Origin: Rummeliibacillus pycnus
GTDB taxonomy: Bacteria > Bacillota > Bacilli > Bacillales_A > Planococcaceae
Reading direction: 5' to 3'
Length of the DNA stretch: 64,000 nt
Assembly (NCBI RefSeq): GCF_002884495.1
Contig: NZ_KZ614145.1
Location: 2,246,423-2,310,422 of the forward strand
Part shown: piece by piece, positions 6,751 through 61,758 of the stretch
Numbering within the stretch: the first letter of the stretch is position 1
Layout: the number at the start of each line of letters is the position of its first letter
Notes under the pieces: model-generated
What the model saw: the letters and a program-made list of their open reading frames with translations, nothing else
Database searches by the model: none
What the model was told of the DNA's origin: nothing
Program-made: the position numbers and the translations under genes

Positions 6751-6796
6751 TCATGATGTTAAAATTTATATCATATTTTTCTATTATTCAAGTATT

Positions 6797-6823
6797 TTAT
6801 CGGTAACTTAATCAAAAAATTAA
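6797..6823 (-). promoter_or_regulatory. sigma-D type promoter of the pse operon
   Basis: On the minus strand TTAA at 6820-6823 and ACCGATAA at 6797-6804 are 15 bases apart. The B. subtilis sigma-D consensus is TAAA-N15-GCCGATAT. The -10 box matches 6 of 8 positions and the spacing is exact. The start codon is 62 bases downstream. Confidence 0.6.
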
Positions 6824-6895
6824 TGTATTTTTAGACACTAAGTACAATAATACTAGAAATTAATTATTCCCTTATTTAAAGTATGAACTGTTCAA

Positions 6896-6937
6896 AAACA
6901 TATTAAAATATTGGATCTACTTTTTAATAGATCCAAT
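6896..6937 (-). terminator. intrinsic terminator after flaG
   Basis: Nine-base-pair stem ATTGGATCT (6910-6918) with AGATCCAAT (6929-6937), followed on the minus strand by TATTTTAATATGTTTTTG. It separates the fliD-fliS-fliT-flaG unit from the pse operon. Confidence 0.65.
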
Positions 6938-6951
6938 AGAACATATAAGAA

Positions 6952-7302
6952 TTAAACCTTTTCATCAAAAATTTTTCCGAAAATCTTTTGTAATTCATAA
7001 TAAGTATCCAATATTTTCTTAGGAGGAATCTCTTTAATGACTTCATCGGTTTGAGCATTCACAACTTCAACATAATATTCTTTAAGGCCATCATGAAACA
7101 CAAACTTTGAATTACGATTTTGAATTTCTGCAAATTGGTTCAATTTATTGACAGTCAGTTGTACTATTTCTTTCATTTGTTCGTCAGATTTCTGTTTACT
7201 CGAATTTTCAGCAATAGACTGTCCTTTAACAAAGCTGCTTGATGTTAAATCAGCATATTTACTATTAATTGGTGACGTATCTACTATATTTGAAACCTTC
7301 AA
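6952..7302 (-). CDS. flaG: FlaG-family flagellar protein
   Basis: This 116-residue protein has the FlaG domain in its C-terminal half: VNKLNQFAEIQNRNSKFVFHD, then a strand-rich YYVEVVNAQTDEVIKEIPPKKILDTYYELQK, which is the typical FlaG ending. FlaG proteins influence filament length in several bacteria. The first 45 residues are polar and low in complexity. The start is TTG at 7300-7302 behind GGGAG with an 8-base spacer. It closes the fliD-fliS-fliT-flaG unit, as in many Bacillales, and is followed by a terminator. Confidence 0.85.
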   Translation of the reverse strand: MKVSNIVDTSPINSKYADLTSSSFVKGQSIAENSSKQKSDEQMKEIVQLTVNKLNQFAEIQNRNSKFVFHDGLKEYYVEVVNAQTDEVIKEIPPKKILDTYYELQKIFGKIFDEKV

Positions 7303-7328
7303 ACAATCAGCTCCCTAATAACAAGTAA

Positions 7329-7691
7329 TTATTTTTTACCATCATAGTAAATTCCGTTGTTATAGTTAATCTGGTTATATGGATCAAGATACTTTATTTC
7401 ATCTTGTTTCATTTTCTTTAAATGTAAAATATCAGATTTTATACAATCTCTTAGTTCAATAAGGTTAGTGGTGATATTCCGATCAATTTTTAGTAAAAGT
7501 TCATGGTTTTCTCCATCAACAAAAGGATTAATATTATGTTCTTTTAAACCTTTAGCAATGTTCACTCTCTGATTTAGTAATTCATTTAGTTTAGTAATAT
7601 ACTGGCTTCGTTCTTCTAAATCAGGAGTTCTTTTTAAATATTTTAGTAACTCCATTGAATTTTGCAAAAAATGATCCAGTCCTTCACTCAT
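7329..7691 (-). CDS. fliT: FliT-like flagellar chaperone
   Basis: The 120-residue, mostly helical and charged protein sits directly after fliS, the conserved position of FliT, the export chaperone of the FliD cap. A segment of heptad-like Leu spacing (MELLKYLKRTPDLEERSQYITKL and similar) fits the helical bundle of FliT, and sequence similarity within this family is always low. Its ATG overlaps the fliS stop codon by 4 bases (ATGA), so translation is coupled. The assignment rests mainly on size, helix content and position. Confidence 0.75.
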   Translation of the reverse strand: MSEGLDHFLQNSMELLKYLKRTPDLEERSQYITKLNELLNQRVNIAKGLKEHNINPFVDGENHELLLKIDRNITTNLIELRDCIKSDILHLKKMKQDEIKYLDPYNQINYNNGIYYDGKK

Positions 7692-36807: not shown

Positions 36808-37288
36808 ATTGAACCCGCTCGTGCTGGTGAACACGGGAAAGGTTTTGCAGTAGTAGTTGAGGAAGTACGTAAATTAGCTGAAGAATCCATAAGTTTCGCA
36901 AATGAAATTCGACAATAACTGCGAACATTCATCAAAGAAAACTGTAGAGCAAATGGAAGATGTAAATGAAAATGCACAACTAAGTTATGAAAGTATTAAA
37001 ATTACAGGTTCAGCTTTCCAAGAAATCTACGATACTTCTTTATCACTCTTAAATGAAATTCAAGAAGTTTCAAAAGTAACGGAAGCAATGGCTATAGCAT
37101 CTCAAGAAACTGTAGCCTCCCTTGACCATGTCAACACTATTTTCCAAGATACAACAGATAAAACACAACAGATTGCAAGTCTTTCTGAAGAACAATATGC
37201 AATGATTGAAGAAATCATAGCATCAACCGAAGAATTAAGTAAAATGGCTGAATCATTGAGTAGTAGTATTCAAGCGTTCAAATTATAA
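36808..37288 (+). pseudogene. chemoreceptor (MCP) C-terminal remnant
   Basis: The stretch begins abruptly inside the conserved signalling tip: [27 protein letters not shown], with Pro in place of the usual Ala. There is no TM, HAMP or start region before it. The frame hits a stop at about 36916, and the coding similarity then continues in another frame (from 36902) as MCP-like sequence: TVEQMEDVNENAQLSYESIKI, SEEQYAMIEEIIASTEELSKMAESL and IQAFKL at the end. It is therefore 5' truncated and frameshifted. Two intact MCPs occur elsewhere in the window. Confidence 0.85.
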
Positions 37289-50891: not shown

Positions 50892-51872
50892 TTACAGTTT
50901 TTGATTTTTCATTGCTGCTACTAGATCGTTAGATTGTGAGATAGACGTGGTCATCTCAGTGGATAAATCAAAGTTTTCTTGAGCAAATGAACACAATTCC
51001 CCCATTTTCTCAATAGAACCAGTAGACATTTCAGCAATGGATGCCAATTCTTTACGGAAAATGACAATTTCACTCATCGCTGCATCTGTTGCATGATTAA
51101 TACTTGACATACTATTGAATAACTCATTTTCAGAAGCAGAAATTTTTTCAAAGAAATCACTTGTGTTACGTGTCATTTCTTGTGTTTTTGCAACATCTTC
51201 TGATTTTTCCCTTATGTCTTTAGCCAATAACTCAACTTTATGAGTGATTTCCTGTACCTTTTGATTAATGTCAACTAAAGCACTTTTACTTTGCTCAGCA
51301 AGTATGCGAACTTCTTGAGCGACAACAGAAAATCCTTTTCCATGTTCTCCCGCGCGTGCTGCTTCAATTGATGCATTCAATGCGAGTAAATTCGTTTGGT
51401 CTGCAATATCACCAATCATTTTTGTTATTTGTATAATCTCTTTCGTTTCTTTTTGTACATCTTCTATAGAGACTTCGAAACCTTCAAAGACATTTTTAAT
51501 ATAATTCATTTGCCCATCTAGTTGATCCATGTTCTGATTACCTTCAATAACTAGTCGAATATTCTTTTCGCCTTGTTCTTCTATAGTCGTAGTAATTGAA
51601 TGAATATTTTCAGTTTCCGTAACAATTCTTTGGAGATTGTCATCGGATGCAAGTATTGATTGATGTTCCACTTCTAGTGCACTTTTTATTTCCGTAATTC
51701 TTTCGATCATTACACTGTCACTCTTTGCGTTTTTTTCATTTGCATTTTTTAATAACGCTATTAAACCGTCAAGTTCAGTAATTATTTTTTCCCTTTCATC
51801 AACCGATAATCCCTCAATTTCATGAACAACTTCCTTTTCAACTACTTGTTGCTTAAAAAGTTTTTCGAACAT
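50892..51872 (-). CDS. soluble chemoreceptor (YfmS-like MCP signalling protein)
   Basis: The 326-residue protein lacks membrane and HAMP segments. Residues 1-110 are a short N-terminal segment and coiled coil with no PAS, heme or Cys-His zinc (CZB-like) motif that I can identify. The MCP signalling domain has the invariant tip [34 protein letters not shown] near residues 165-198. The ATG at 51870-51872 has GGAGG 8 bases upstream; the open frame to 51893 has no site. It should signal to CheA/CheW from the cytoplasm. Confidence 0.88.
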
Positions 51873-57832: not shown

Positions 57833-58054
57833 TTATCTCAACCATGGATGTCCTGGATTCCAAGGTTGCCATGTGTTCCACTGCCACCATGGATTCCAAG
57901 TATTCCATTGCCCCCATGGATACCATGGGCCCCACTGCTGCCATGGATTCCACGGGCCCCACGGATTCCAATGTTCTTCTGATCTCCTTGGATACCAATT
58001 CCCTTGATTAATCGGTCTGATATAACCACCCTGTCTTCTAAATGGTTGAACCAT
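57833..58054 (-). CDS. tryptophan/proline-rich small protein
   Basis: I do not recognise this 73-residue protein. It has 16 Trp, many in the repeats NPWGPW, QQWGPWYPW and QWNTWNPW that fill residues 29-70, after a basic start (QPFRRQGGYIRP). GGGAGG lies 6-8 bases before the ATG, and a stem follows the stop, so it looks like a real gene. No signal peptide or Cys. The overlapping +1 frame over the same bases encodes a run of Gly-X-Y triplets. A coat, exosporium or wall role is speculation. Confidence 0.68.
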   Translation of the reverse strand: MVQPFRRQGGYIRPINQGNWYPRRSEEHWNPWGPWNPWQQWGPWYPWGQWNTWNPWWQWNTWQPWNPGHPWLR

Positions 58055-58337
58055 TTTCGTCCTCCCTTTTTTAAAATTCTTTATAGTATATAGAAATTTT
58101 TGATATTGGGCTGGGATTTTGACTAATAACTTAAATAACTTTTTAAATAAAGAAATGATTCAAAAATCAGCAATTGGCTTATTCGTTCTTAATCTTTTTT
58201 TGATATAATTTTCTGAATACTTTTAATTTTGTTTGTCAATGGATTTTATAAGCTTTTTTTCTTATACTATTTATGTACAATGGACTATGGTCATAAAAAT
58301 AATATAAGTTTTTAGAACTAGGAAAGGTGATTTTAAA
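58055..58337. other. 283-base gap upstream of the decarboxylase gene
   Basis: AT-rich. The promoter of the decarboxylase-chemoreceptor unit should be here; I see no single clear choice. Confidence 0.4.
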
Positions 58338-59987
58338 TTGGATTCTATTAAACAACTATTCCAAAGCGAAGATGGCAACGGAAAACAGAGAGAGCAACTA
58401 GTAAATTATCTTGAAAAAATATTAACATCAATGGATACATTAAAAGACCCATCTAAAACAACACTTGGGCCAATGCAAGAACGCTCTTCAAACTTTTATC
58501 AAGAATTAATGGAAGAACATGTTGTTCCTACAGATGGTACTGGGTTAGATACAGTTGTAAATGCATTAACAGATTTAATGAAAGGACATCCCTTCCATAC
58601 TCATAACTTTGTAACCAATGTATTACCTATGGCAAGTATTCCGGGTATTTTAGGTTTATTTGTAAATTCTCTTTTAAATGGTAATAATTTATGGGATGTA
58701 TATGGACCTGCAGCTACTGAATCAGAAGTAAAGGTCATTTCTATGATGTCTAAATTGGTAGGATATGATTATACAAAAAGCTTCGGCTATACAACTTGGG
58801 GTGGACAAGGTGCTGTTTTCAGTGGACTTCGCGTAGCGATTGCCAAACAATTCCCACATGCAAAAGAAGAAGGGGTGCCAAATAACCTTTATTGTTTTGC
58901 TTCTGAAAATGCGCATTATAGTTTATTAAAATCAATTGAAGCAGTAGGTATTGGAAGTAATCATTTAATCCGTGTTAAAGCTGGTAAAGATCACTCAATG
59001 GATATGGATGATTTACAAGAACGCTTAACAGAAGTTATAGAAAAAGGTGGCATTCCAGTATATATCGTTGCAACAACTGGTGCTACAGATAGTTTTGCAA
59101 TTGACAATATTAAAGAAATCAAAGAAATTACCACTGCTATGGAAGATCGCTACAATTTAAAATCAATTCATATTCATGCTGATTCTGCATTGGGTGGTTT
59201 TTACGCATTCTTTAACGATTATGATTTCACTCAAAATCCACTACACTTTGAAGAGGAAGTACTCGAAAGTTTAATGGTCATTCGTTCACGTATGCAATAC
59301 CTATATATGGCGGATTCTTTGTGCTTTGACTTCCAAAAACTTGGTCAAACTCCATACTTAACAAGTCTATTCTTATTAAAAGAAGGTAGTGCACTTGGTC
59401 TTCTAGATTTAGAAGATTTTGATACGCCTTATGTAGGTAATCGCGGATACGGTTCTTATCATACAGGCTATACACTAGAATGCTCTCGAATGGGTAGTTC
59501 AATTGCTATCTATGCTGCTTTAATGGCATTCGGAAAAACAGGCTACCAACAAATATTAGCTAATTATGTTCGAGTAAATTTAGCATTCCGTCAACAATTA
59601 GCAGCTAAAATACCATCACTTCATGTAGTTAACCCAACAAATATTGGACCAATTACAGCATTTCGTCTATATCCTGCTGGTTATAAATGGGATACAGAAC
59701 AAGCAGGTTCTTATACGGTTTCTGAAATTGAAAAAATAAATACATTAAATTCATCTTTATTTGAAGTATTAGGTAAACACCGTGATGACGTGTTCTTTGG
59801 AGATACAACTCGTATTTGTACAGTTGATGCATCTGACAGTGCAGACCGTATTCCAGTCGGGGTAGCAAAATTCTTCTCCATTTCACCTTATACTGAAAAC
59901 GAACATATTCCAGCAATCATTGAGTCCCTTAAACACTCAATAGAAGAATTGGAGGGTTCATCTCTTGCAGTTTCTAGCCAAAAATAG
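58338..59987 (+). CDS. PLP-dependent group II-type decarboxylase family protein
   Basis: The 549-residue protein belongs to the fold-type I PLP decarboxylases (Glu/Dopa/diaminobutyrate type). Conserved parts are [14 protein letters not shown] near 151-164 (phosphate binding), [17 protein letters not shown] with the ring-stacking His193, [15 protein letters not shown], and HADSALGGF with Asp282 for the pyridine nitrogen. The Schiff-base lysine should be K334 in [12 protein letters not shown], which differs from the usual DxHK. The substrate cannot be told. The start is TTG 58338 behind GGAAAGGTG. Its last 23 bases overlap the start of a chemoreceptor gene. Confidence 0.83.
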
Positions 59988-61662
59988 ACATACCATGTTA
60001 ACGAAGTATATTTTCTATTTTGTTGCACCAATTGCTGTATTTTCAATTATTTTTGGATGTATACTTTATTATTCTAGTAACAATATTATTCAAACCCGAG
60101 TGATGAGTCTATTTGAAGAAAAATTACGTCTTGTTTCAGAAAATGTAATGACCCATATTGATTCTTCACTTGTAACAAATGCAGATAATAATGATGAAAA
60201 CCAATATAAAACACTTTTAAATACATTAAATATAGCCAAAAAACAGCAAAAAGTTCAAAATGTCTATGTACTTTCCCGTTCTAATGGGAAAGAACATATT
60301 GTAGCGTTAAGTGATACAGATAATCATAATGCTGCTTATAAATTTGATCCTAAGATGAATGAAGCTATCGATCAAGATAAAATCACGTATAGTGATATTT
60401 ATAAAGACAAATATGGTATTCACAAATCGATTTTCATACCTTTTAAAGGGACCGATATCATTTTTGGATTAGATATGGATGCTTCATTCATATCAAAAGT
60501 ACAAACTCAAACGATATGGATTGCAGTTGGTTTGACCATTTTATTTGTTATTTTAGGTGCAATACTTGCTTACGTGATTAGTAAACGTATTATTAAACCA
60601 GTACTTGCGATTAACAACTATGTTGATGAAGTTGCAGAAGGTAATCTAGCAGCAGATCGATTTGAAATTAAAGGAAAAGATGAAATCGCCCAATTATCTC
60701 ATGGAGTTTATAAAATGGTAGATGATTTAAGAAGTATCATTGGCAACATTAGTTCTAATGCTGAACAAGTAGCTGCTACTTCTGAGGAATTATCTGCTGG
60801 CGCTGAGCAAACAAGTGCTTCAATCGAACAAGTTACCGTATCGATGCAAGAAGTGGCGGCTGGCTCTGATAAGCAAACAGATGCTGTCGAAGAAATTGGT
60901 ACTAACGTTAATACGATTTCGAAGAAAATGAATGATGTAACAAACTACGTAGAAAAAGTTAGCGTAAAGGCAATTGATACAACGCAAACAGCAGAAAATG
61001 GTAAAGCCATCATAAAAAATGCTGTAGAAAAAATGAATATAACAACTGAAATGATTGATACAACTTCTGAAGTTGTGAATCGCTTAAACAATTACTCAAA
61101 AGAAATTGGCGAAATTGTCTCATTGATTACTGAAATTGCCGATCAAACAAACTTACTTGCTCTTAATGCATCAATTGAAGCCGCACGTGCAGGTGAACAC
61201 GGTAAAGGTTTCGCAGTTGTTGCAGAAGAAGTAAGAAAACTTGCAGATCAATCTAGAATAGCAGCAAATGATATCAGTAATCGTATCGATTCAATTAAAA
61301 CTGAATCTACAAATGCAGTTGATTCAATGGCTATAAGTTATGACAATCTAAAAGTAAGTTCTGAAGCATTTGATGAAGCTGGCGATGCATTTAACGTAAT
61401 CTATTCTGCAGTGTCAGACTTAACTTCACAAATGACACAAGTAAGTAAAGCCATTGATGCCATGAATGGTGGTATTACCAACATTGCAGAATCAATGGAA
61501 GAAGTAAGTGTAATCGTCGTTCAAAATTCAAGTAGTATCCAAAATGTTGCTGCAGCTTCTGAAGAACAAACAGCTAGTATGGAAGAAATCACAGCTTCTT
61601 CAACAAGCCTAGCAAATATGGCTGAGCATCTACGGACAGCTGTTGGAAAATTTAAGTTATAA
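59965..61662 (+). CDS. transmembrane methyl-accepting chemotaxis protein
   Basis: The 565-residue receptor has a membrane helix at about 15-38, an extracellular domain of about 140 residues (single Cache-like by size and by [27 protein letters not shown]), a second helix at about 176-200, HAMP ([23 protein letters not shown]), and the signalling domain with [40 protein letters not shown] seen in sections. Its start TTG 59965 has GGAGGG 8 bases upstream and lies inside the decarboxylase gene, so translation is coupled. The ligand may relate to the decarboxylase substrate or product. Confidence 0.92.
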
Positions 61663-61715: not shown

Positions 61716-61758
61716 AAACTACCAAGGTCGATTTATTGGATCTTGGTAGTTTATTTTT
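61716..61758 (+). terminator. intrinsic terminator after the chemoreceptor gene
   Basis: Eleven-bp stem AAACTACCAAG (61716-61726) with CTTGGTAGTTT (61742-61752), then ATTTTT. Confidence 0.87.

Follow-up and report, generated by a model that had tools for sequence, protein, structure and literature searches.

The decarboxylase and chemoreceptor genes that overlap in the 64,000-nucleotide stretch of Rummeliibacillus pycnus DNA analysed here (the window) probably belong to one chemotaxis pathway, because relatives nearly always keep the enzyme gene beside a methyl-accepting chemotaxis protein (MCP) gene, in some cases under one riboswitch. The overlap, the conserved pairing, a sensor domain that tracks the enzyme and riboswitch aptamers in relatives were all computed here. 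We lean, by a little, towards a reading in which the two proteins form an enzyme-receptor chemotaxis module that senses chemistry related to the substrate or product of the enzyme. The preliminary description had proposed a functional coupling of decarboxylase and chemoreceptor, and this is strongly supported by conservation of the pair across genera, by its occurrence in several gene orders, by co-occurrence of the sensor and by the riboswitch in 18 relatives. The locus carries the following features.

58320..58329, + strand: Shine-Dalgarno-like AGGAAAGGTG, 5' of the decarboxylase TTG start (read from the sequence)
58338..59987, + strand: group II PLP-dependent amino acid decarboxylase gene, 549 aa, TTG start (ORF list, Pfam)
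59951..59956, + strand: receptor Shine-Dalgarno GGAGGG, within the decarboxylase gene, near its end
59965..59987, + strand: gene overlap of 23 nt, decarboxylase/MCP (ORF coordinates)
59965..61662, + strand: MCP gene, 565 aa, TTG start (ORF, Pfam)
60058..60516, + strand: predicted extracellular ligand-binding region, about residues 32-184, single-Cache-like by AlphaFold2
60577..60732, + strand: HAMP domain, MCP residues 205-256 (Pfam)
60970..61512, + strand: MCP signalling domain, residues 336-516 (Pfam)
61716..61752, + strand: putative intrinsic terminator hairpin, -20.4 kcal/mol, then a T-rich stretch, 3' of the MCP gene

The two open reading frames (58338-59987 and 59965-61662) confirm that the receptor starts 23 bases before the end of the decarboxylase, and its ribosome site, GGAGGG at 59951-59956, lies inside the decarboxylase gene as had been described, with a spacing of 8 nt to the MCP TTG at 59965. 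In 42 same-family pairs the equivalent of the window MCP start falls 11-23 nt 5' of the decarboxylase stop in a constant relative frame, and GGAGG followed by TTG or ATG is kept at the equivalent place in most pair loci inspected. A terminator pattern scan gave no match at the 61716-61752 hairpin site. Candidate sigma-D and sigma-A promoters at the window operon were loose matches only and were set aside, as were sigma-70-type promoters, whose 15 matches were no excess over a mean of 17.2 in shuffles. The nearest ORF of at least 80 aa lying wholly upstream of the operon encodes a ComK homologue (PF06338; 56292-56870, - strand). Divergent to the decarboxylase lies a 73-aa ORF (57833-58054, - strand) with 16 tryptophans, placed at almost each third residue in its second half; it had no tblastn match in the loci compared from other genomes, a Rummeliibacillus relative included. 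Elsewhere in the window, MCP signalling-domain matches occur at 51072-51545 (- strand) and 36808-36942 (+ strand), the latter short and with an in-frame stop.

The decarboxylase matches PF00282 with 100 bits (gathering cut-off 27; E 1.6e-28), and all 21 homologues aligned keep its K334, H193 and D282. We take these to be the PLP lysine, the stacking histidine and the aspartate of group II PLP decarboxylases, and the enzyme probably converts an amino acid to an amine. Foldseek with its structural model (mean pLDDT 78.3, with low-confidence stretches) matched GAD67, the tryptophan decarboxylase 4obv and tyrosine decarboxylases. The protein thus shares the fold and catalytic residue pattern of the named group II enzymes (PF00282; tyrosine, tryptophan, glutamate and diaminobutyrate decarboxylases), but it falls below the curated cut-offs of all six NCBIfam decarboxylase equivalogs searched (DABA, PanP, MfnA, histidine, tyrosine and glutamate; best score 84.9 of 900 bits, MfnA 71.4 of 299.4), so that its substrate is not assignable from them. 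The closest enzyme in a named record, from Rummeliibacillus sp. POC4, is 92 percent identical. The lysine context, FDFQKLGQ, had been called atypical; the motif is present, but the residue before the lysine varies in relatives, being Q in most rows of clade A and H in clade B (clades defined below) as well as in L014, L053, L054, L055, L057 and L101, and Q-K likewise occurs in PDB chains 8zpi and 4rit, the latter an entry named decarboxylase. We therefore regard this point as minor. In four relatives (L059, L060, L105 and L107) the gene directly upstream of the decarboxylase encodes a sodium:neurotransmitter symporter of one family, with a Pfam PF00209 match for L105 and L107. Going by bacterial transporters of this kind, the neighbour hints that the amino acid on which the enzyme acts is hydrophobic or aromatic.

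The receptor has clear HAMP (38.3 bits, gathering cut-off 25, E 1.7e-9) and MCPsignal (150.6 bits, gathering cut-off 34.6, E 5e-44) matches. Its outer region of 153 aa was modelled by AlphaFold2 as a Cache-like fold with a pLDDT of 88.9; flanked by two membrane helices and about 150 residues long, it is by prediction a single Cache domain. Foldseek with the sensor model returned chiefly Cache or PAS-like sensor domains (best E 6.4e-7, TM 0.3-0.6), and VIA Z scores to CitA, DctB, WalK, KinD, Tlp3 and TlpQ were 11-14, values that long helices can inflate. By sequence, the window sensor domain gave no Pfam match, to Cache families or others, even with E allowed to rise to 1, and had no meaningful match among PDB sequences; the sensor regions of three relatives (L101, L103 and L106) match Cache or PDC families below cut-off. 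We set aside assigning a ligand from the sensor sequence or fold, as Cache fold matches do not reveal it, and comparison with solved receptors gave no dependable residue correspondence from which the pocket motifs of amino-acid-binding (dCache_1AA) or amine-binding (dCache_1AM) Cache domains could be read. Cache-type chemoreceptors share with the window protein the Cache-like fold (predicted here), HAMP and MCP tip, and include an amine-sensing member, the histamine receptor TlpQ (PDB 6fu4; PMC8231116, partial text). The window sensor differs from these in being unrecognised by Pfam and operon-linked to a decarboxylase.

Conservation of the pair, on which the preliminary description had made its proposal depend, is extensive: an MCP adjoins 56 of 58 close decarboxylase homologues in the family and is the next gene in all 12 found elsewhere in the class. 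The family figure comes from 261 genomes, 62 of which the decarboxylase query matches; 14 places at no more than 33 percent identity were left out as other decarboxylases, leaving 58 places in 54 genomes (these counts, and those of 43, 42 and 33 used below, are manual tallies from homologue-search rows). Clade A comprises the 44 places with an identity of at least 62 percent. Of these, 42 are of the overlapping enzyme-MCP type, including one with a truncated enzyme gene (G051). The other two (G161, locus L050, and G025, locus L053) have an intact enzyme with no MCP adjoining, which implies that the enzyme can work alone. Both nest inside the overlapping-pair group in the enzyme tree, where the branch leading to the L053 enzyme is long (0.42, compared with 0.13 in its sister L052). 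Clade B (49 to 53 percent identity, 14 places) is arranged differently. Eleven of its loci (L061-L067 and L069-L072) encode a 122-aa protein, a 236-aa protein, an MCP and, last, the decarboxylase; the MCP of this run has about 390 aa and, judged by eye, a single membrane helix without any outer domain. The 236-aa protein has a GNAT match below cut-off, family searches with both small proteins gave no clear family, and a STAS-like look of the 122-aa protein is an impression only. In the other three a full MCP gene stands convergent, immediately behind the decarboxylase.

Across the class, 15 of 398 genomes sampled match; in the 12 that come from other families, the MCP overlaps behind the enzyme in four, lies behind it with a 31-56 nt gap in three, upstream in one and convergent in four. 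Pairs were found in ten families, the window's among them, and nothing further turned up when the families to which G270 and G293 belong were searched. A phylum-wide sample of 398 genomes contributed a single remote homologue, G765 at 42 percent, and the surrounding 17.6 kb hold no MCP. The pair is also present in 14 of 14 named genome records (Psychrobacillus, Lysinibacillus, Viridibacillus and Priestia taiwanensis among them), which are in part the same genomes as in the family and class samples, and on a Niallia taxi plasmid (17-nt overlap). A record of the Klebsiella grimontii plasmid pNY3A (L111) holds a shortened homologue of 508 aa (52 percent, the match ending at residue 480) with no MCP adjoining; Bacillus-type genes surround it, for example one for a Spo0E-family phosphatase, and the record is possibly misassigned. 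At L108, Group II intron matches lie between the decarboxylase and the convergent MCP (6793-7349).

By chance, about one gene in 100 would have an MCP neighbour, since 21 MCP matches passed the cut-off along 3.85 Mb, taken here to hold one gene per kb. Independent the loci are not, as one genus supplies many of the 58 in the family, and for L001, L002 and L017-L044 the flanks were 1.5 kb, so that the MCPs are visible in part. The different gene arrangements occupy different parts of the enzyme tree (63 rows, drawn without the near-duplicate or incomplete L017-L044, L056, L058, L073, L075, L076, L079, L109 and L110; several long branches are placed unsurely). Judged from these genome comparisons, the adjacency of decarboxylase and MCP is not chance, and the module occurs across Bacilli.

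The sensor domain follows the enzyme. A copy with at least 39 percent identity is present in 43 family genomes, and in 42 of these it adjoins the decarboxylase, G046 being the sole case of a sensor domain kept without the enzyme; conversely, G161 and G025, with the enzyme and no adjoining MCP, gave no sensor match at E 0.01. Weaker copies (29 to 37 percent identity, 33 rows) are found on other MCPs. When 19 of these rows were retrieved, 16 proved to be MCPs encoded directly behind an ATP-grasp ligase gene, at a gap of -17 to +78 nt (L126-L130, L132-L134, L136, L137 and L139-L144); PF13535 was matched by three of the 16 ligases, and L131, L135 and L138 have no ATP-grasp gene before the MCP. With copies behind decarboxylase and behind ATP-grasp genes, this sensor family is repeatedly linked to single enzymes of amino-acid-acting kinds, and this recurrent linkage is the strongest hint of a relation between enzyme and ligand.

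We scanned 41 decarboxylase loci besides the window, plus 10 of the 16 ATP-grasp loci, with Rfam, and found a c-di-GMP-I aptamer 5' of the operon in 17 of the 41; the family-wide scan added an eighteenth, before the L071 operon and just outside the extracted stretch. The 18 comprise every one of the 11 four-gene operons of clade B, a further six loci in which the MCP gene overlaps behind the enzyme gene (L055, L097-L100 and L112), and L102, where the MCP gene precedes that of the enzyme. The window operon has no riboswitch or T-box at the Rfam gathering score and nothing meaningful at a relaxed threshold, the scanned Lysinibacillus, Viridibacillus and Psychrobacillus-group decarboxylase loci have no riboswitch, and the 10 ATP-grasp/MCP loci have none of the c-di-GMP-I class. 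Riboswitches of this class are widespread in the family, occurring in 152 of 261 genomes, but for G132, G141, G142 and G246 the listing, made under strict filters, has no other than that of the operon. In the B. cereus group they are known before MCP genes (PMC11218506, partial text). Given this prevalence and this known position, the operon riboswitches may have to do with the MCP and not with the enzyme. Two extra c-di-GMP-I riboswitches lie behind decarboxylase-linked MCPs (L097, 8558-8641; L057, 6627-6711), that of L057 standing before another MCP gene.

All 10 clade B leaders examined have an intrinsic terminator between the aptamer and the first gene, and the 3' end of the aptamer can pair with the 5' arm of the terminator at -12.6 to -17.7 kcal/mol, raw energies calculated without a shuffled control. 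The same pairing is found in L055 and L098 (about -15 kcal/mol), is less clear in L099, L100 and L102 and hardly visible in L097, and in L112 our script detected no terminator. As the aptamer can pair with the terminator arm, such leaders are predicted to switch the operon off at high c-di-GMP. Class I c-di-GMP riboswitches can also be on-switches (PMC6366702, partial text), and in B. thuringiensis the genes of the Bc1 riboswitch, which precedes an MCP gene, were unchanged in expression by cellular c-di-GMP (PMC11218506, partial text). The leaders described here are of the same class as Bc1 of the Bacillus cereus group, which likewise controls an MCP gene (PMC11218506, PMC5816809 and PMC6366702, each in part), and differ in having a decarboxylase gene at the start of the operon or within it. 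The word decarboxylase is absent from the main text, as far as available, of these three papers, and nothing on a decarboxylase-chemoreceptor pair appeared in the portions of the literature reached by our searches.

These results bear on several other explanations. Enzyme and receptor might merely be co-expressed, both being useful in the motile state (the enzyme, for example, through pH or proton-motive-force balance by decarboxylation), with a receptor ligand unrelated to the enzyme. A riboswitch of a class known before motility genes precedes the operon in 18 relatives, as this would predict, and in clade B, whose partner MCP lacks an outer sensor, the ligand argument cannot apply in this form. 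We nevertheless consider co-expression alone unlikely, if worth keeping in view, as the sensor domain closely tracks the enzyme gene within the family, and an opposite-strand MCP, hence one that is not co-transcribed, still adjoins the enzyme in seven loci (L059, L060, L068, L101, L105, L107 and L108). A non-enzymatic role, in which the decarboxylase homologue binds PLP or an amino acid and regulates the receptor, could be read from the Q that many loci have, instead of H, next to the PLP lysine and from the partly low-confidence enzyme model; it is very improbable given the three invariant catalytic-type positions in 21 homologues and the occurrence of Q-K in 8zpi and in 4rit, with its decarboxylase name. 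That the neighbours were co-inherited by chance and share no function we find scarcely credible: one genus does contribute many of the 58 family loci, but the arrangement varies by lineage with the MCP still adjoining, and ten families have the pair.

Returning to the module sensing the enzyme's chemistry, one form of it is nutrient taxis, in which the receptor senses the amino acid that the enzyme consumes and the amine is waste. Chemoreceptor genes sitting with genes for metabolism of the attractant are a known pattern, with naphthalene and other aromatic compounds as examples. That pattern and the symporter gene beside the enzyme in four relatives favour this form, whereas no amine-catabolic gene was seen in the listed neighbourhoods, the linked genes in 11 loci encoding instead the weakly GNAT-like protein and the 122-aa protein; we hold it as a tentative possibility. 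The window locus resembles the naphthalene-type loci in linking a receptor to metabolism of a small molecule, but here the partner is a single, predicted amine-forming enzyme and not a catabolic cluster.

These data allow us to propose a mechanism for the preferred reading. The two genes would form one translationally coupled operon serving chemotaxis. From an amino acid that is most likely hydrophobic or aromatic, the enzyme would form an amine. Outside the membrane, the single-Cache-like sensor would bind a small molecule of that chemistry, whether the amine made by the cell itself or the amino acid on which the enzyme draws; sensing of the decarboxylase's substrate or of its amine product by the receptor is plausible. 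HAMP and the MCP tip would then relay the signal to the flagellar motor. A c-di-GMP riboswitch, where relatives have one, would ensure that both proteins are produced in one and the same state, probably the motile one. A wider class, in which a single enzyme is paired with its own receptor (the decarboxylase here, the ATP-grasp ligase in the paralogous loci) and the signal is self-made, with c-di-GMP control in some species, seems to us doubtful at present.

For most chemoreceptors the ligand is unknown, and genome context here gives a whole receptor family a testable chemistry: amines or their amino acids, and amino-acid conjugates for the ATP-grasp group. In some lineages receptor chemistry is also tied to c-di-GMP. 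Were the ligand the product of the enzyme itself, the pair would represent a compact two-gene form of chemotactic self-signalling in Bacilli such as Lysinibacillus.
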